Assembly: GCF_028369105.1 (NCBI RefSeq)
Contig: NZ_JAQNDO010000001.1
Coordinates: forward strand, 11,626,501 to 11,690,500
Length of the DNA stretch: 64,000 nucleotides
Source: Polyangium mundeleinium
GTDB taxonomy: Bacteria > Myxococcota_A > Polyangia > Polyangiales > Polyangiaceae
Direction: 5' to 3'
A model generated the notes under the pieces. The model searched no databases. It was not told the DNA's origin and saw only the letters and a list, made by a program, of their open reading frames with translations. Position numbers and translations under genes: made by a program. Shown piece by piece: positions 32,780 to 39,741 of the stretch. Numbering within the stretch: the stretch's first letter is position 1; every line of letters starts with the position of its first letter.

Positions 32780-33385
32780 TCAGCTCGCCGCGGCCGCGCT
32801 GCCGCCGGGCGGGCCCTTCGAGACGACGACCATCGCCGGACGGACGAGGTAGTCCCCCATGCGATAGCCGGGCTGCACTTCGTACAGGACCACGCCGGCC
32901 GGATGCTCGGGCGATTCGAGGTGCTGGATGGCCTCGTGTTGCGCGGGATCGAAGGGCTGGCCGACCGCAACGACGCGCTGGATCCCCATCTTCTCCAGCG
33001 TGTCGAGGAACTGCTTCAGCACCATCCGCAGGCCCTCGGCCACGGCCTTGCCGTCGGCGGAGCCCTCGGCGTGCACGAGCGCACGCTCGAAATTGTCGAA
33101 GACGGGAAGGAGCTCCTTCACGGTGGTCTCCCGGCCCCGCCGCTGGGCGTCGTCGACCTCACGCCGCGAGCGCTTGCGGAAATTGTCGAAATCGGCCGCG
33201 GTGCGGAGGAGCTGATCACGCGTCCGTGCGGCCTCGGCCAGGGCGTCCGCGAGGCGCTGCTCCACCGTGGGCGTCGGAGGAGCCGAGGGCTCCGCCGCGG
33301 CCGACGGCTGCTCGCCGTTCGTCGCTTCGCCGTTTTGAGCGTTCGGATCCTGGGCGGACTTCGTCGTGGACTCGGCTTCGGACAT
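32780..33385 (-). CDS. grpE: GrpE nucleotide exchange factor
   Basis: 201 residues. An acidic/Pro-rich disordered N-terminus (1-40), a long helix ([20 protein letters not shown]) and the beta-domain [12 protein letters not shown] and [18 protein letters not shown] are typical. It exchanges ADP for ATP on DnaK. First gene of a grpE-dnaK-kinase run. The promoter just upstream leaves a leader of only a few bases. Confidence 0.95.
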
Positions 33386-33396
33386 GGGTGCCGGCC

Positions 33397-33424
33397 ACTA
33401 TAACCTCCAAAGATCGACTGGCAA
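33397..33424 (-). promoter_or_regulatory. grpE: Sigma-70-like promoter for grpE-dnaK
   Basis: On the minus strand TTGCCA (33419-33424) is followed by a 16-bp spacer and TATAGT (33397-33402). The predicted start of transcription falls about 5 bases from the grpE ATG, so the message would be nearly leaderless. No CIRCE inverted repeat is present. Confidence 0.5.
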
Positions 33425-33515
33425 CGGGCGCCCCCCACCTGGCGACCCGAGCGAGCCACGCCGCGAGGGCGCGTGGCATTTGCCCCGGCGGGGCGACCGG
33501 CGTAGATCGCCTCGC

Positions 33516-34769
33516 ATGACCCTCGCCCCCGCCTACGGAGCCGAGAGCCCCATCGCCGAGCTGCTCGAACCCGAAGACCTCCTTCCCCTCGCCGAGCGCA
33601 GGCTCGTGGGCAATTACCGCCAGGCCCCGTTCGTCCTCGATCGAGGCAAGGGCTCCGAGGTCTGGGACACCGAGGGCCGTCGTTACCTCGACTTCTGCGC
33701 CGGTGTCGCGGTCTGCTCGCTCGGCCACGCGCACCCGCGCCTCGTCGCCGCGATCGCCGAGCAGGCCGCGCGGCTGATGCACGTCTCGAACTACTTCTAC
33801 AACGCCGAGAACGCGCGCCTCGCCGACGAGCTTTGCAAGAGGAGCGGCATGGACCGCGCCTTCTTCTGCAACTCGGGCGCCGAGGCGAACGAGGCGATGC
33901 TCAAGCTCGCGCGCCGCTGGTTCTTCACGAAAGGCGAGCCCGATCGCTACCGCATCATCGCCTTCGACAACGCCTTCCACGGCCGCACGATGGGCGCTGT
34001 CGCGCTCACCGGGACGCCGAAATACCGCGAAGGGTTCGGCCCGCCGCTCGCCGGCGTGACGCACGTGCCCTACGGGGATCTCGACGCCGTGAAGGCCGCC
34101 ATGGGCCCGGACGTCGCGGCGATCTTCGTCGAGCCCGTGCAGGGCGAAGGCGGCGTGATCCCGCCCCCGAAAGGCTTCCTCCCCGGCCTGCGTAGCCTCT
34201 GCGACGAGCACGGCGCGCTGCTCTGCCTCGACGAAGTGCAGACCGGCATCGGCCGCACGGGCGCTTTCCTCGGCGCGCAGCACGACGGCGTCGAAGGCGA
34301 CGTGATCGCGCTCGCCAAGGGTCTCGGTGGCGGATTTCCGATCGGCGCGCTCCTCATCAAAGAGCGCCTGAACGGCGTGCTCTCGCCAGGCACGCACGGC
34401 TCGACGTTCGGCGGAAACCCGCTCGCGTCGCGGGCCGCGCGCACCGTGCTCGCCGTCCTCGACGAGGAGAAGCTCATCGAAGGCGCCGTCACCAAGGGCC
34501 AGCGCCTCGCCGAGGGCCTCGCGGCGCTCGTGAAGGAGCACCCCACGCTCTGCGTCGGACAACGCGGCCGCGGCCTCTTGCAAGGCCTCACGCTCGCGCA
34601 AGGCGTCGACACGCGCGCCATCCTCGGCCGCGCCCGCGCCCACGGCCTGCTCCTCACGGTCGCCGGCGCGAGCACGCTCCGCTACACGCCTCCGCTCGTC
34701 GTGCGCGAGGCCGAGATCGACGAAGCCCTCACCATCACGAGCCGTGCGCTCCTGGAGATGAAGCCGTGA
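33516..34769 (+). CDS. argD: Acetylornithine aminotransferase
   Basis: 417 residues, class III PLP aminotransferase. Marks: NSGAEANEAMLKLARR, FHGRTMGAVALTG, LCLDEVQTGIGRTG with the PLP-pairing Asp, and the PLP lysine in ALAKGLGGGFPIGA, followed by STFGGNPLA. It makes N-acetylornithine in arginine synthesis and may also act in the lysine pathway. ATG at 33516 (MTLAPAYGAESP) is used; the frame is open to 33366 in non-conserved sequence. It ends in a 4-bp overlap with argF. Divergent from grpE. Confidence 0.93.
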   Translation: MTLAPAYGAESPIAELLEPEDLLPLAERRLVGNYRQAPFVLDRGKGSEVWDTEGRRYLDFCAGVAVCSLGHAHPRLVAAIAEQAARLMHVSNYFYNAENARLADELCKRSGMDRAFFCNSGAEANEAMLKLARRWFFTKGEPDRYRIIAFDNAFHGRTMGAVALTGTPKYREGFGPPLAGVTHVPYGDLDAVKAAMGPDVAAIFVEPVQGEGGVIPPPKGFLPGLRSLCDEHGALLCLDEVQTGIGRTGAFLGAQHDGVEGDVIALAKGLGGGFPIGALLIKERLNGVLSPGTHGSTFGGNPLASRAARTVLAVLDEEKLIEGAVTKGQRLAEGLAALVKEHPTLCVGQRGRGLLQGLTLAQGVDTRAILGRARAHGLLLTVAGASTLRYTPPLVVREAEIDEALTITSRALLEMKP

Positions 34770-35728
34770 AGCGTGATCTTTTGCGACTCGCAGACCTCGG
34801 GGACGACGGCATCGTCGCCATGCTGGATCGTTCGGCCTTCTACGCCCGCATGCGCGGCAAGACCGACCACCCGCGGCCGCTCTCCGGCCACGCCATCGCC
34901 CTCCTCTTCGACAAGCCCTCGACCCGCACGCGGCTCTCGCTCGAGGTCGCGACCTTCGAGCTCGGCGGCCACCCGCTCATCGTCACGCCCGACTCCACAC
35001 AGATGAGTCGCGGTGAGCCCACCGAGGACACCGCACGCGTGCTCGGCCGCATGGTCTCCGCCGTCACGTACCGCACGAACACCACGGCGCGCTTCGAAGC
35101 CATGGCCCGCGCCTGCCGCGCGCCCGTGTTGAACGCGCTCACCGACGACGCGCACCCGATGCAGGTCCTCGCCGATCTTCACACGACGCGCGAGGCACGC
35201 GGTCGGCTCGAAGGCCTGCGCATCTGCTGGGTCGGCGACGCGAGCAACGTGGCGCGCTCGTGGATCGAGGCCGCGGGCCTGCTCAAGCTCGACATGACGC
35301 TCGCGACGCCGCCCGCCTTCGCTCCGCCCTTGCCCGAGGTCGAGGAAGCGCGCGCCCGCGGCGGTCGCATCACGATCACGACCGACGCACAAGAGGCCGC
35401 GAAGGACGCCGATGTCCTGCTCACGGACGTATGGGTCAGCATGGGGCAAGAGGCCGAGCGCGACTACCGCATCGGCGCGCTCTCGCCGTACCGGATCACG
35501 CAGGAGCTCGTCTCGCTCGCCTCGCCCGAGGTCGTGGTGCTGCACTGCTTGCCCGCACATCGTGGCGAGGAGATCGACGCCGATGTGCTCGAAGGCCCGC
35601 GGAGCTTCGTGTGGGACGCCGTCGAGTCGCGGCTGCACACGAGCAAGGCGCTGCTCGAATGGGCCGCGCTCGGGCCCGGCTTCGGCCCGCCGCCGTTCGC
35701 TGTCGGCCGCGGCGGCGCGGCAGGCTGA
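34766..35728 (+). CDS. argF: Ornithine carbamoyltransferase
   Basis: 320 residues. Carbamoyl phosphate site KPSTRTR, HPMQ, and the ornithine-site HCLPAHRG are intact; VWVSMGQE is the SMG loop of ornithine transcarbamylases. Converts ornithine plus carbamoyl phosphate to citrulline. GTG start overlaps the argD stop (GTGA), indicating coupled translation. The C-terminus ends in a short Gly/Pro-rich tail after the last helix. Confidence 0.95.
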   Translation: MKRDLLRLADLGDDGIVAMLDRSAFYARMRGKTDHPRPLSGHAIALLFDKPSTRTRLSLEVATFELGGHPLIVTPDSTQMSRGEPTEDTARVLGRMVSAVTYRTNTTARFEAMARACRAPVLNALTDDAHPMQVLADLHTTREARGRLEGLRICWVGDASNVARSWIEAAGLLKLDMTLATPPAFAPPLPEVEEARARGGRITITTDAQEAAKDADVLLTDVWVSMGQEAERDYRIGALSPYRITQELVSLASPEVVVLHCLPAHRGEEIDADVLEGPRSFVWDAVESRLHTSKALLEWAALGPGFGPPPFAVGRGGAAG

Positions 35729-35737
35729 GGCTCGGCG

Positions 35738-38086
35738 TTGCGAGCACTCGGACCCGTCGCCGATCCTGTGCCGTGCTCGGGGTGCGGCAAGCTGCTTGAT
35801 CCGCTGCGCGCCGGCCACGTCGGGATCTTCGACAGCAAGTTCCACTTCTTCTGCGATCGTCACGCCTGCCGCGCGTGTTTCCTCGGCGAGCCCCCCGGCG
35901 AAGCCGAAAACACGCGCCCCGCGCGGGTCCCGCTCTCCCTCTTCGCGCCCCGCCGATCCGGCGCCGAGCCCGAGCCCTCGCGCGGCAACCACGACGCGCC
36001 CATCATCCCCTTCCACGCGCCCGCTTCGAGCGACGCCGCGCTCCCCGAGCCGCCCGCTCCCTTCGACGATCGAACCCTCGTCGAGCCCATCGCGCACACC
36101 ATCCTCACCGAGGAGCCGTCCCGCATCGACGTGCCCGAGCCGCGTGACATCGGCGCGCTCCTGCTCGTCATCGCCACGATCGCCGGCACGCTCGCCGTCG
36201 CGCTCGGCCTCGCCGGCGACGCGACCCTCGTCATCGGCGCCCGCATCGTGCTCGCGTCCGTCGGCGCCGGCATGCTCGTCGGACGCGCCGCCACGACCCC
36301 GCGCGAGCCCTCCGATCCGCACCCTGCGCCGATCCTCGCGCCCTCGATCCTCTCGCTCGTCCTTGCCATCGGCGCTGCGCTCCGCGCCGCTCCTTCGCTC
36401 GGCGCCGAGGCAGCTTCACTTGCGGGCATCATCGTCACGGCGACGGCCGTCGGCGCGTGGTTGCTCGAAGGCGCGCGGCACGCCTCCCTCGCCGAACGCG
36501 CCTTCGTCGCGCAATCGCTCGCCGTCCCTGGCAGGCGCGCGCCCGACGACGGCTCTCCCGGCGAGATCGCGAAGAACAAAGTCTTCGACCTCTGCCCCGG
36601 GGAGCAGGTCCTCGTCGAGCCGGGCGAGGTCGTCCCCGTCGATCTCGTCGTCGGCTCGGGCGAGGTCTTCGTCCTGCCTTGGCTCGGCGCGACCACGCCC
36701 ATGCGCAGACGCGCGGGCGAGCCTGTCGTCGCGGGCGCGAAGGTCGTGCGCGGCCGGCTCCGCGGCACCTGCACCTTCGCCGGCAACGACCGCGCGTTCG
36801 CGCGTGTCCTCATCGATCCACGCCGCCGCGCCGACGCCCTCGCGCCCATCGCGCGCGCCTCACGGGCCCTCGCCGAGCGCTGGTCGCTCGCCGCGCTCGT
36901 GACCGGCGCGCTCTCGGCCTTCATCGCCGGCGGCCGTACCTACGTCGAGATCGCGATGACCGCGGTCGCGTCCCACGCCGCGCTCGCGACCACGCTCATC
37001 GCGGGCGTCGCCGGCGTGCACGTCGCGCGCGGCATCTTGCACGCGCAGCGCCGCGGCATCGCCTACAAGAGCGAGGGCGCGTGGGACCGCGCGGCGCGCG
37101 TCAACGTCGCCGTCTTCTGCGCGCGCGGCACGCTCCTCCTCGGTGAACCCGAGCTCGCGGAGCTCGAAGCTCCAGGCGGCAAGCTCGAACCGCTCGACGT
37201 CCTCTCGCTCGCGGCTGGCGCCGAGCGCGGCGAAGAGCACCCGATCGCCACAGCAATCGTGCGCGCCGCCGTGACCCGCTCGGTGCGCCCCGACGGCGTG
37301 CGCAACGCGCATCATGTCCCCGGCCTCGGCGTCACGGCCGTCACGAGCTCGGGCGAGGACCTATGCGTCGGCAGCCGCGCGCTCCTCCTCGCGAACCGCA
37401 TCTCCATCGCCGCGGCCGAGCAACGCATCGCCGAGCTCGAAGCCCTCGGCCGCACCGTCGTCCTCGTCGCGGTCGGCGCGCGCCTCGTCGGCATCCTCGG
37501 CTTGCAGGACGGCCTGCGCCCCGGCGCGCGTGCTGCGGTGCAGCACCTGCTCGACGCACAGATCGAACCCGTGATCATGTCGGGTGACGCGCGCGAGACG
37601 TGCGAGGCCATCGGCCACTCGCTCGACGTCGATCACATTCGCCCCGAGGTCTTGCCGACCGAACGTGGGGCCGAGGTTCGAAGGCTCATCGACGCGGGCA
37701 TGTCCGTCGCGGTCCTGGGTCATCCGAGCGTCGACGAGGGGGCGCTTGGCGCGGCGGACGTCGCGGTCGCGCTTGGCGCGGCCGGCTCGTCGCCGGGCGA
37801 TCTTTCCGTTGCGCTGGCCTCGGACGACGTACGCGACGCGGCGCTCGCGCTCGCCATCGCGCACCGCGCGCGCCTCGAAGCACGCGTGGGCCTCGCGATT
37901 GCCGTCCTGCCTGCGCTCGTCGGGGCGATCGCGGTGGCGTTTGGCGTGCTTCCGCCGGCCTACGCGCCGCTTGCCTCGCTGCTCGGAGGGGCGATGGCGG
38001 TTTTGCACGTGCGAGCGCTCGATCGCGTGCGAGAGTCTGGACCGACGCGAGGACACACGTGGGAAAACGGCCCAAGCGACCCTTGA
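35738..38086 (+). CDS. P1B-type ATPase homologue lacking catalytic motifs (pseudo-ATPase)
   Basis: 782 residues with the layout of a heavy-metal P1B ATPase: an N-terminal Cys/His cluster (C13, C16, C39, H42, C44, C47, TRASH/zinc-ribbon-like), a Pro-rich linker, membrane helices (~139-182, 203-243), an actuator-like region (VLVEPGEVVPVDLVVGSGEV), more helices (~382-430), and P/N-domain-like sequence to ~690, then terminal helices. Catalytic motifs are absent: the DKTGT position reads FCARGT with Cys461 for the phosphorylated Asp; the actuator TGES reads LGAT; the membrane CPC reads SHA; the GDGxND hinge reads GHPSVDEG. The EEHP motif (~501) and SGD remain. So it cannot form the usual phosphoenzyme. 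TTG start; GTG at 35768 possible. It begins 9 bp after argF and ends 32 bp before fur. Confidence 0.85.
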   Translation: MRALGPVADPVPCSGCGKLLDPLRAGHVGIFDSKFHFFCDRHACRACFLGEPPGEAENTRPARVPLSLFAPRRSGAEPEPSRGNHDAPIIPFHAPASSDAALPEPPAPFDDRTLVEPIAHTILTEEPSRIDVPEPRDIGALLLVIATIAGTLAVALGLAGDATLVIGARIVLASVGAGMLVGRAATTPREPSDPHPAPILAPSILSLVLAIGAALRAAPSLGAEAASLAGIIVTATAVGAWLLEGARHASLAERAFVAQSLAVPGRRAPDDGSPGEIAKNKVFDLCPGEQVLVEPGEVVPVDLVVGSGEVFVLPWLGATTPMRRRAGEPVVAGAKVVRGRLRGTCTFAGNDRAFARVLIDPRRRADALAPIARASRALAERWSLAALVTGALSAFIAGGRTYVEIAMTAVASHAALATTLIAGVAGVHVARGILHAQRRGIAYKSEGAWDRAARVNVAVFCARGTLLLGEPELAELEAPGGKLEPLDVLSLAAGAERGEEHPIATAIVRAAVTRSVRPDGVRNAHHVPGLGVTAVTSSGEDLCVGSRALLLANRISIAAAEQRIAELEALGRTVVLVAVGARLVGILGLQDGLRPGARAAVQHLLDAQIEPVIMSGDARETCEAIGHSLDVDHIRPEVLPTERGAEVRRLIDAGMSVAVLGHPSVDEGALGAADVAVALGAAGSSPGDLSVALASDDVRDAALALAIAHRARLEARVGLAIAVLPALVGAIAVAFGVLPPAYAPLASLLGGAMAVLHVRALDRVRESGPTRGHTWENGPSDP

Positions 38087-38111
38087 CGCACGGAAACCTG
38101 GACGGGATAAA
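38083..38111 (+). promoter_or_regulatory. Sigma-70-like promoter of the Fur-family gene
   Basis: TTGACG (38083-38088), 17-bp spacer, GATAAA (38106-38111). The -35 overlaps the stop codon of the pseudo-ATPase gene. Transcription would begin at about 38118-38119, on or next to the fur ATG, predicting a leaderless mRNA. Confidence 0.55.
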
Positions 38112-38118
38112 TGACACC

Positions 38119-38607
38119 ATGGTCGCGAGCGTGAGGGAGGAAGCCGTGACCCTGGACCGGGCCGCCGTGGATCGCTTGCGGGCTCGACTCCAGGCGTACA
38201 TGGCCAAAAAGGGCCTGCGCTCGACGGCGCAGCGGCGGCTCATCGTCGACACGTTCTTCGAGGGTGCGTCGCACATGACGATCGAGGACCTGCTCACCGA
38301 GGTCCGCGTGCACGACAAAGGCATCGGCTACGCGACCGTCTACCGCACGCTCAAGCTCCTCGCCGAGTGCGGCGTGGCCTCCGAGCGTCGCTTCGGCGAT
38401 GGCCTCAGCCGCTACGAGCTCGCCGACGACGCAAAGGCGCACCACGATCACCTGATTTGCATCTCGTGCGGCACGATCGTCGAGTTCGAGGAGCCGCGCA
38501 TCGAAGCGCTCCAGGACGAGGTCGCGCGTAGCTACGGCTTTCAGGTCACCTCGCACAAGCACGAGATGTACGGCACCTGCGCCGACTGTCAGAAAAAGGT
38601 GTCTTGA
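38119..38607 (+). CDS. Fur-family transcriptional regulator (Fur/PerR type)
   Basis: 162 residues. Winged-helix half [19 protein letters not shown] and [13 protein letters not shown], then the metal-binding half with [12 protein letters not shown] and [13 protein letters not shown]. Both CxxC pairs for the structural zinc and the His-rich regulatory site are present, so it should be a metal- or peroxide-responsive repressor; Fur and PerR cannot be told apart here (Zur less likely). The frame is open far upstream but only the ATG at 38119 ([10 protein letters not shown]) starts the family region. It directly follows the pseudo-ATPase gene. Confidence 0.92.
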
Positions 38608-38614
38608 GGCGCGA

Positions 38615-38640
38615 GCCCCTCTCCTGCGCGGGAGAGGGGC
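38615..38640. terminator. Hairpin after the Fur-family gene
   Basis: A perfect 10-bp GC-rich stem (38615-38624 / 38631-38640) with a 6-nt loop, in the gap between converging genes and without a T-tract. Its arms (GCCCCTCTCC / GGAGAGGGGC) resemble those of the hairpin at 1473-1501. Confidence 0.6.
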
Positions 38641-38664
38641 CCTCGACGTGAACGCGGCGGGGTT

Positions 38665-39741
38665 TTACTCGCCGACCTGCGCGACGTAACTGACGCGCGC
38701 GATCGGATCGTAGAGCGGGTTCAATACCTGCACTGGCGGCGCCACGAGGCCTGCGTACTGCGTGTTGTCGAGCACGACGTAGTAGAGCCCCGGCGCGAGG
38801 CTGAACTTCCGCGTCTGCGCCGGCCCTGGCGCGAGCGGCGCGCCGCCGAGCACGGGCCCCGGCGCTACCCCGAGCGGCTGCCCCGTCTGGTAGCCCTCGC
38901 GCCACGGATCCCCGACCATCTTGCTGACGATCATCACGTCGACCGTCGGCCCTTGCACGCTCATCGTCAGGTAGAGCGCTTGCCCCGAGCCGACCTCGAA
39001 GGGGCCGAGGAAGTCACGCGCGTTGCCGTGGACGTCGACGGTCTCGTTCGCGAACGTGAAGCGCTCGTCGTCTTGCACCTTGAACGGCTTGATCGGCTTG
39101 TTCGGCGGCGTGAGGATCCCGAGCGCGAACTCGTTGCCGCGGTCCTCGTTCGCCACGACGGTGAAGCCGCGCGTGAGCTCGCCGGTGATCACCTGGTTGC
39201 CGAAGAAGTTCGTCAGCGTGCCGAACGGCGGAATGTTCGAGGCCACGTTGAACGCGGTGTTCTCGATGTATCCGACGCGGAAGTCGGGCCCCGAGATGAT
39301 GCGGTTCAGCCGGCCCCACACGTAGATGTCTTCGTCGGAGATGGCGAAGTCCGGCCGAAGCTCGATCGTCGCCGACGTGGAGAAGCCGACGCGCTTCGCC
39401 GGCTGCATGTAGCCGTAGCCCGTCCCTGCAAACGTGACAGCCACCGTCTGACGCGCGTCATCGACGGTGTAGTTGCACGTCATCGGGAAGAAGCGGCCCA
39501 TGGCCGGCGAGGCCGAGTCGGTCTTCAAGGGCACGCCGACCTTCAGCATCTCCGGGCAGATCCGACTCGCGCCGAAGTTCGAGAAGAGCCACCAACGGAG
39601 CTGCGGGTTCGCGTTCACCACGGTGCCGGCGCAAGGGCAGCCGGCCACGGCGAAGGAGAGCGCGAGCACGAGCAGGACCAAGAACGCGCCCGCCGGTCGG
39701 GCGGACGACTTGCGACGGGATCGCAGCACGCGGATTACCAT
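38665..39741 (-). CDS. Hypothetical lipoprotein
   Basis: 358 residues. A basic N-terminus, hydrophobic stretch and lipobox (LALSFAVAGC) mark a lipoprotein. The mature part has no recognised family; it is rich in aromatic and small residues with probable beta structure (VGFSTSATIELRPDF, LYLTMSVQGPTVDVMIVSK) and ends LYYVVLDNTQYAG then VSYVAQVGE. ATG at 39741 chosen because the lipoprotein signal starts there; the frame is open to 39948. Faces the Fur-family gene across a hairpin. The 291-bp gap to hrcA holds no other gene. Confidence 0.78.
   Translation of the reverse strand: MVIRVLRSRRKSSARPAGAFLVLLVLALSFAVAGCPCAGTVVNANPQLRWWLFSNFGASRICPEMLKVGVPLKTDSASPAMGRFFPMTCNYTVDDARQTVAVTFAGTGYGYMQPAKRVGFSTSATIELRPDFAISDEDIYVWGRLNRIISGPDFRVGYIENTAFNVASNIPPFGTLTNFFGNQVITGELTRGFTVVANEDRGNEFALGILTPPNKPIKPFKVQDDERFTFANETVDVHGNARDFLGPFEVGSGQALYLTMSVQGPTVDVMIVSKMVGDPWREGYQTGQPLGVAPGPVLGGAPLAPGPAQTRKFSLAPGLYYVVLDNTQYAGLVAPPVQVLNPLYDPIARVSYVAQVGE

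Follow-up and report, generated by a model that had tools for sequence, protein, structure and literature searches.

A pseudo-P1B-ATPase family of the order Polyangiales that has lost its catalytic and transport motifs and is often encoded beside arginine biosynthesis genes

Pseudokinases and pseudophosphatases are well known. The gene described here is predicted to encode a pseudo-P1B-ATPase and lies at positions 35738 to 38086 of a 64,000-nucleotide stretch of the Polyangium mundeleinium genome (RefSeq assembly GCF_028369105.1, contig NZ_JAQNDO010000001.1, positions 11,626,501 to 11,690,500 of the forward strand; here called the window, to whose numbering the feature coordinates refer). The closest described systems are the Cu+ P1B-ATPases (CopA, ATP7B, and HMA4), which resemble the predicted product in fold, domain order, and topology. 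Unlike these pumps, however, the pseudo-ATPase has lost the catalytic and transport motifs, its membrane part is poorly conserved, it carries a TRASH-like N-terminal finger, and it is found in the context of arginine loci.

Two eukaryotic systems are also comparable. In a structural study of the human P-type-like protein TMEM94/ERMA, neither a TGES motif nor a nucleotide at the proposed site was found (PMC12134183), whereas another paper holds TMEM94 to be a Mg2+ ATPase (PMC13322241); its status as a pump is disputed. TMEM94 shares with the pseudo-ATPase a P-type fold and an actuator-like domain without TGES; it differs in keeping Asp417 as the proposed site, in having ten helices, and in being eukaryotic and not of the P1B type. 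The guanylate cyclase beta of Plasmodium contains a degenerate P4-ATPase domain in which most signature residues were reportedly not found, and a regulatory role is discussed there for related domains (PMC6592433). That domain is fused to a cyclase and is of the P4 type and eukaryotic. The papers listed by our literature search included neither a free-standing bacterial pseudo-P-type ATPase nor a P-type ATPase of Polyangium, and the term P-type ATPase occurs in none of the 12 of 42 papers listed for arginine genes. For pseudophosphatases and TRASH domains, the papers listed were general ones, and the text of one review (PMC5106787) contains no word beginning with "ATPase."

The pseudo-ATPase gene is a single open frame with a TTG start codon at 35738, GTG at 35756 or 35768 being possible alternatives. 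In Pfam, the 782-residue protein matched E1-E2_ATPase (1.6e-10) and Hydrolase (1.1e-12). It matched the NCBIfam model for heavy-metal P-type ATPases, TIGR01525, with an E value of 2.8e-59 and 201.4 bits, below the cut-off of 346.25, and the P-type ATPase superfamily model TIGR01494 with 70.9 bits, above the cut-off of 62.3. CopA (3j08) was the best PDB sequence match of the family profile (E value, 3.1e-78). An AlphaFold2 model based on 63 sequences (predicted local distance difference test score, 88.1; predicted template modeling score, 0.80) had the CopA P/N domain 3a1e as its nearest solved fold (Z score, 26.7; 1.9 Å over 266 residues), and its P/N domain matched CopA 3a1c to 3a1e with Z scores of 26 to 27. 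The P-type fold was also seen in the match of the model to the copper ATPase 7r0g (Z score, 24.8; root mean square deviation, 5.2 Å over 616 residues). Both the hidden Markov model search and the structure prediction thus agree with the initial annotation, in which the gene was described as a P1B-ATPase homologue with an intact frame. By sequence and predicted fold, the protein is a P1B-ATPase by descent, from a copper-type pump ancestor, but by descent only, as every test of P1B-ATPase function made here gave a negative result. The gene and its parts are as follows.

35738..38086, plus strand: pseudo-P1B-ATPase gene, one open frame of 782 amino acids, stop codon at 38084-38086
35774..35869, plus strand: N-terminal TRASH-like Cys4 finger (C13, C16, C39, and C44; C-x2-C ... 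DPLRAG-V ... FC-x4-C), from residue conservation and weak Pfam matches
36149..36520, plus strand: first four membrane helices, residues 138 to 261, from the AlphaFold2 model
36524..36832, plus strand: actuator domain, residues 263 to 365, with LGAT at the TGES position (36683-36694), from the alignment and the AlphaFold2 model
36833..37051, plus strand: helices round the former metal site, residues 366 to 438, with Ala-Thr-Thr at the CPC position (36986-36994), from the alignment and column conservation
37052..37828, plus strand: P and N domains, residues 439 to 697, the most conserved part, from conservation and the fold match to 3a1e
37118-37132, plus strand: former DKTGT motif, reading CARGT, from the alignment
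37664-37666, plus strand: position of Lys643, replaced by Arg, from the alignment
37718-37735, plus strand: GDGxND position, reading GHPSVD, from the alignment
37829..38041, plus strand: last two membrane helices, residues 698 to 768, from the AlphaFold2 model

The alignment confirmed most of the motif replacements proposed initially: the phosphorylated Asp is replaced by Cys461 in FCARGT, TGES reads LGAT, and GDGxND is replaced, its position reading GHPSVD. The residual motifs and the N-terminal cluster noted at that time are also present (HP501-502, SGD615-617, C13, C16, C39, and C44). The loss of the membrane CPC motif was likewise correct, but its placement at SHA (residues 412 to 414) was not, since canonical C417-P418-C419 aligns with Ala417-Thr418-Thr419, five residues away. 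Further canonical positions are altered at K462, at N665, at Lys643 of the P domain (Arg), and at Y725-N726 and S750-S751 of the last helices. Those retained are T465, GxG 529-531, and D666, plus HP 501-502 in the Polyangium protein. Among the columns with at least 90% conservation in canonical relatives, there are 89 in which less than half of the family retains the residue.

These losses recur across the family. DKTGT was present in none of the 140 members read (one per genome). The TGE glutamate, found in 35 of 35 pumps, is kept by 1 of 55 family members, 41 of which have Ala instead, and the C, P, and C of CPC, each present in all 35 pumps, are kept by 1, 1, and 0 of the 55 members, respectively. 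In GDGxND, the first Asp (Asp662) is retained by 0, the Asn by 1, and the last Asp by all 55. The residue at the phosphorylation site in 90 orthologue rows is Cys in 71, Ser in 10, Leu in 4, Ala in 2, and Asn, Met, or Phe in 1 each, but never Asp. The "Cys461-type" substitution assumed in the initial annotation therefore holds for the loss of Asp and not for Cys itself, and in these alignments the rule of the family is loss of Asp rather than gain of Cys. A conserved catalytic Cys was rejected, as the residue varies and is not Cys in 19 of 90 rows.

In a survey of the order, taken to be Polyangiales from its named loci, a member was identified in 149 of 183 genomes at E values of ≤1e-94 (96 of 111 among the good genomes). 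Each carrying genome gave one match row except G071, in which the member is split into two frames (G071:C283:12238-14362), owing to either a sequencing error or a real loss. Below this threshold, further members or pieces were found in G018, G019, G063, and G178. The 140 members read comprise those of 139 of the 149 genomes plus that of G020; among the named hosts are Polyangium fumosum, Sorangium cellulosum, and Minicystis rosea. In a search of 377 genomes of the phylum, members from the order rank above the best others among the matches listed, with some overlap of weaker order members. The ten best relatives from outside the order among these matches (L221 to L230), as well as those of two far genomes, all have DKTGT. 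In a FastTree tree, eight canonical pumps, the only ones included, form their own side with a support of 100, and the family labels track the taxonomy (10 changes; minimum possible, 9). Supports are low and branches long in places, and only these two features of the tree were used. Because members occur across the order, none of those read has DKTGT, and they group apart from the pumps in a tree that follows taxonomy, the data point to a single origin before the radiation of the order, followed by vertical descent. Another divergent P1B-like gene was observed in the P. mundeleinium genome (G000:C1:5114531-5115508; 798-amino-acid frame, partial TIGR01511 match), and similar genes occur in other Polyangium genomes.

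The ratio of nonsynonymous to synonymous substitution rates (omega) was estimated by the Nei-Gojobori method on these GC-rich genes, for which synonymous rates are biased at longer distances. Among six Polyangium genomes (15 pairs), the mean omega of the pseudo-ATPase gene was 0.087 (range, 0.070 to 0.107), and those of its neighbors argD, argF, and fur for the same pairs were 0.177, 0.182, and 0.116, respectively. Within Polyangium, the lowest values were those of the P/N domain (0.025) and the last helices (0.027), followed by the other helices (0.10 to 0.11), the actuator domain (0.105), the finger (0.117), and the linker (0.237); the last 14 residues gave 1.2. By these estimates, the gene is under purifying selection like its neighbors, and more strongly so than they are in Polyangium only. 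As the catalytic residues are lost in the orthologues while the gene is maintained, the protein is a putative pseudoenzyme, and the proposal of a maintained pseudo-ATPase family is strongly supported by the order-wide orthologues, the absence of DKTGT, and purifying selection. The orthologues and the omega values also bear out the argument made initially that the long frame speaks against decay, and decay, strain-specific loss (no orthologue with DKTGT among the 140), and assembly error were all ruled out on these grounds.

The conserved positions are unevenly distributed. We compared 30 family rows (mean identity, 0.474) with 20 draws of 30 canonical pumps (0.470), counting a column as conserved if at least 90% of rows had the same residue. 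In the P/N domain, 89 of 258 columns were conserved in the family versus a mean of 57.0 of 257 (54 to 62) in the pumps, and in the finger region 11 of 42 versus 2.5 of 38. The opposite was seen in the membrane segments (18 of 265 versus a mean of 62.8 of 262; 60 to 67) and in the actuator domain (17 of 92 versus 27.4 of 92). For all 55 nonredundant family rows, the counts were 6 of 264 (membrane) and 48 of 258 (P/N). None of 72 columns in the helices round the former metal site was conserved in 35 family rows versus 22 of 72 in 35 pumps, in a comparison in which identities were not matched (0.406 versus 0.470). On the identity-matched comparison, a conserved membrane metal path was rejected (18 of 265 columns versus about 63 of 262 in pumps). 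In the distant members of G019, G020, and G063 (L308:2866-4806, L309:2804-4936, and L316:4322-7927), no actuator domain was found, while the finger and the P/N domain remain; part of the first helices is apparently also lost in G063. Because conservation sits in the cytoplasmic P/N domain, the membrane part is poorly conserved, and no actuator was found in three members, the working part is probably the cytoplasmic one, and the helices would then act as an anchor.

The four cysteines of the finger (C13, C16, C39, and C44) are Cys in 95% to 97% of the orthologue rows with a residue at the position. In 54 N termini chosen from 63 rows (seven truncated or with a misplaced start and two near-copies were left out), C13, C16, and R24 are invariant. 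The Cys pattern fails in 8 of the 63 rows, comprising three cuts at contig ends, one His for Cys, and four starts placed inside or behind the finger. Among the 54 members, Pfam matches at E values of ≤1 were to DUF7576 (40 members), TRASH_HVO_1752_C (28 members), and zf-FCS (23 members), each single-sequence match being weak, and an L24e PDB chain matched the finger with an E value of 0.0012. The N terminus of the Polyangium protein itself gave no TRASH-like match in Pfam, only a chance-level match to DAP10. The finger shares the C-x2-C ... FC-x3/4-C pattern of the treble-clef fingers of the TRASH, YHS, MYM, and L24e types but differs from them in its fixed DPLRAG-V core. It is probably a treble clef of the TRASH/L24e kind, the two types being related at the clan level.

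The former phosphorylation pocket has also changed. In P-type ATPases, positions 463, 643, and 662 surround the phosphorylation site. Each of the three holds a basic residue (R, K, or H) in 45 of 55 members, a combination seen in 0 of 35 pumps. The charges at the pocket positions, of which 616 (Gly) contributes nothing, add up to -1 in all 35 pumps, whereas 48 of the 55 members have a sum of +1 or +2 and the other 7 a sum of 0. This suggests a Mg2+-independent anion pocket.

The gene follows two arginine biosynthesis genes and precedes a fur gene in the window.

33516..34769, plus strand: argD, acetylornithine transaminase, at the head of the apparent operon (TIGR00707, 457.6 bits; cut-off, 410)
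34766..35728, plus strand: argF, ornithine carbamoyltransferase (TIGR00658, 334 bits; cut-off, 281), ending 9 bases before the pseudo-ATPase start
38119..38607, plus strand: Fur-family regulator (PF01475, 119.5 bits), 32 bases downstream of the pseudo-ATPase gene

A scan of 33300 to 38750 for promoters and terminators gave one minus-strand promoter-like site, against an average of 0.1 in shuffled sequence, and 4 terminator-like sites, against an average of 2.0 (standard deviation, 1.2), and was not used.

Neighbors were surveyed in 137 of 140 genomes (G021, G087, and G146 gave no query match at E values of ≤1e-8), and the counts are lower bounds, as many loci stop at contig ends. Of the 82 genomes of group f1, 68 have argD upstream on the same strand and 71 have argD or argF. 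Seven of the 11 exceptions (G069, G073, G079, G116, G123, G155, and G166) are contig ends or short stretches; the others are G080, G129, G096, and G097. In groups f2, f4, f7, f8, and f9 (33 genomes), argH is instead the next gene downstream on the same strand in 30 genomes, with 52 to 415 bases between the matched ends, and lysA stands behind argH in 25. The diverged members of G019 and G063 (f10), both below the profile cut-off, also adjoin argH. In the genomes checked, the two loci are mostly unlinked. Adjacent argD and argF genes were found in 9 of 15 genomes checked; in 7 of these 9, outside f1, the pair lies away from the pseudo-ATPase gene, and in all 6 f1 genomes checked argH lies elsewhere. 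In P. mundeleinium, argH is at 9.12 Mb and the pseudo-ATPase locus at 11.66 Mb; in G163, the two arginine loci are at 3.03 and 0.01 Mb; and in G033, argD-argF is at 3.31 Mb and the pseudo-ATPase gene with argH at 2.03 Mb. The exceptions are G050 and G147, with argF beside a copy of argH. The same gene is thus held at two different, unlinked arginine loci, one in each half of the tree, which would reflect either a move between arginine loci or the splitting of an ancestral arginine cluster that included it. The best argH match of the P. mundeleinium genome (G000:C1:9120229-9121335) is only 38% (G163) and 39% (G070) identical to the pseudo-ATPase-linked argH, and this genome may use another type of ArgH.

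A partnership with the adjacent Fur/PerR-type regulator, as suggested initially, was weakened by the survey. The gene for Fur lies downstream in 34 of 82 f1 genomes (27 on the same strand and 7 on the opposite strand, two of them 1.4 to 1.6 kb away) and in 2 of 3 f5 genomes; for the other 52 genomes, the stretches read contained no fur gene. Fur as a general partner was rejected, since fur is near in 36 of 137 genomes only and is not a constant neighbor, arginine genes being commoner, and the linkage is best read as a local, secondary feature. For the Fur-family protein of the window, all NCBIfam equivalogs listed were below the cut-off. Among other neighbors, 19 f1 genomes, including Labilithrix metagenome-assembled genomes, have a Ser/Thr kinase gene downstream and on the same strand; the one scanned has HEAT-like repeats (L155:10140-13112). 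Outside f1, a gene for a YkuD L,D-transpeptidase is repeatedly found close to the pseudo-ATPase gene, on varying sides (e.g., L170:2129-3946), and at two f3 loci a gene for a right-handed beta-helix protein with a match to NosD, a periplasmic copper-binding protein, adjoins the pseudo-ATPase gene (L174:4709-7870).

We consider the chances about even that the protein, as a membrane-anchored pseudo-ATPase, either senses a ligand or serves as a scaffold for enzymes of arginine synthesis, which it would thereby tune; it is very unlikely to work as a pump. As proposed, the protein would be unable to run the E1/E2 cycle or to pump metal, and its helices would hold the folded P/N domain and the zinc finger at the inner face of the membrane. 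The GxG of the N domain and the former active site, which has become basic (R463, R643, and H/R662), could together make up a pocket that binds a nucleotide or another anion without Mg2+. With its ligand bound, the domain could regulate or colocalize arginine pathway proteins in the manner of a sensor or scaffold, and the finger could be a partner-binding or zinc status module.

Several observations weigh against this proposal. The GxG glycines are kept in 53 and 55 of 55 members, but His501 of the nucleotide site, an ATP-binding residue in CopA, is kept in 33 of 55 only, and nucleotide binding by the P/N domain is therefore no more than possible. The stretches read for groups f3 (11 genomes) and f5 (3 genomes) contained no argD, argF, or argH. 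In f12 (8 genomes), argH is present in 2 only, 0.9 kb upstream on the other strand, and in G180, an f12 genome with a single contig, the pseudo-ATPase gene is at neither arginine locus. Of the 19 genomes without a profile hit, four of which hold a diverged member or a piece, 17 keep argH over the cut-off, so that arginine synthesis in itself does not require the protein. For nine of these 17, the surroundings of argH were inspected: a member or piece is present in G018, G019, G063, and G178, and none in G015, G023, G171, G172, or G174 (the G015 stretch ends near argH). In two Sorangium pairs, the omega of the pseudo-ATPase gene (0.25) is not below that of argD (0.22) or fur (0.13 to 0.20), and between Polyangium and other genera it rises to 0.31 to 0.39 (argD, 0.37 to 0.41; argF, 0.52 in one pair; fur, 0.17 to 0.20). 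The two arginine links need not be independent either, as the gene may once have belonged to a single cluster that contained both argD/argF and argH. Both histories point to arginine, but neither proves the function, synteny being an association and not a mechanism.

The metal sensor or metallochaperone proposed initially, in which the finger would read zinc, copper, or iron and signal to Fur, is an unlikely alternative. The TRASH-like Cys4 finger retained in the family keeps metal sensing possible, the ancestor was a copper pump, and fur is downstream in part of f1 and f5. However, the conserved membrane metal path is gone, fur is missing from the stretches read of the remaining groups, the only metal-tinged cluster among the annotated neighbors is the NosD-like gene at the two f3 loci, the strongest selection in Polyangium falls on the P/N domain and not on the finger, and fingers of this kind are often structural. 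We find it less plausible still that the protein serves lysine/diaminopimelate and wall synthesis instead of arginine synthesis. ArgD can act as a succinyl-diaminopimelate transaminase, lysA follows argH in most of the argH-linked loci, and YkuD is encoded near the gene in part of the f2, f4, and f7 to f9 genomes, in 8 of 8 f12 genomes, and in 2 of 11 f3 genomes. The immediate neighbors argF and argH are, however, arginine specific, argH and lysA are a common gene pair by themselves, and the f1 stretches have no lysA or YkuD match.

An inactive partner subunit that regulates genuine copper pumps would fit the shared CopA fold and the copper-type pumps found over the cut-off in 32 of 39 order genomes searched, but the annotated neighbors include no copper-pump gene and the membrane residues are poorly conserved, which leaves this idea improbable. 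That the protein is still an active enzyme of unusual mechanism, with Cys461 as a nucleophile, for instance, is highly improbable: Cys predominates at the site and the fold is intact in the model, but the residue varies, D662, K643, and the TGES Glu are lost, and three members have no recognizable actuator domain. The probability of a decaying gene or an assembly error is close to nil, as the open frames and the same losses recur across the families of the order and omega is low in Polyangium, in spite of the fragmented case in G071 and the hypervariable tail.

The family is old, single copy, order-wide, and under selection, and it raises the question of what a P-type P/N domain does without a pump. 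Genes of this kind could get annotated as heavy-metal transporters. For the proposed link to arginine synthesis, the genomic context offers a direct genetic test. A fuller account, which we put forward as tentative and rather doubtful, is that the ancestor of the order turned a copper pump, in a single event, into a ligand sensor that is anchored in the membrane and works without Mg2+. Charge inversion of the phosphorylation pocket would have produced a receptor for an anion or nucleotide, through which arginine biosynthesis is controlled from the membrane. If true, this would be a new kind of amino acid pathway regulator built on a P-type ATPase.

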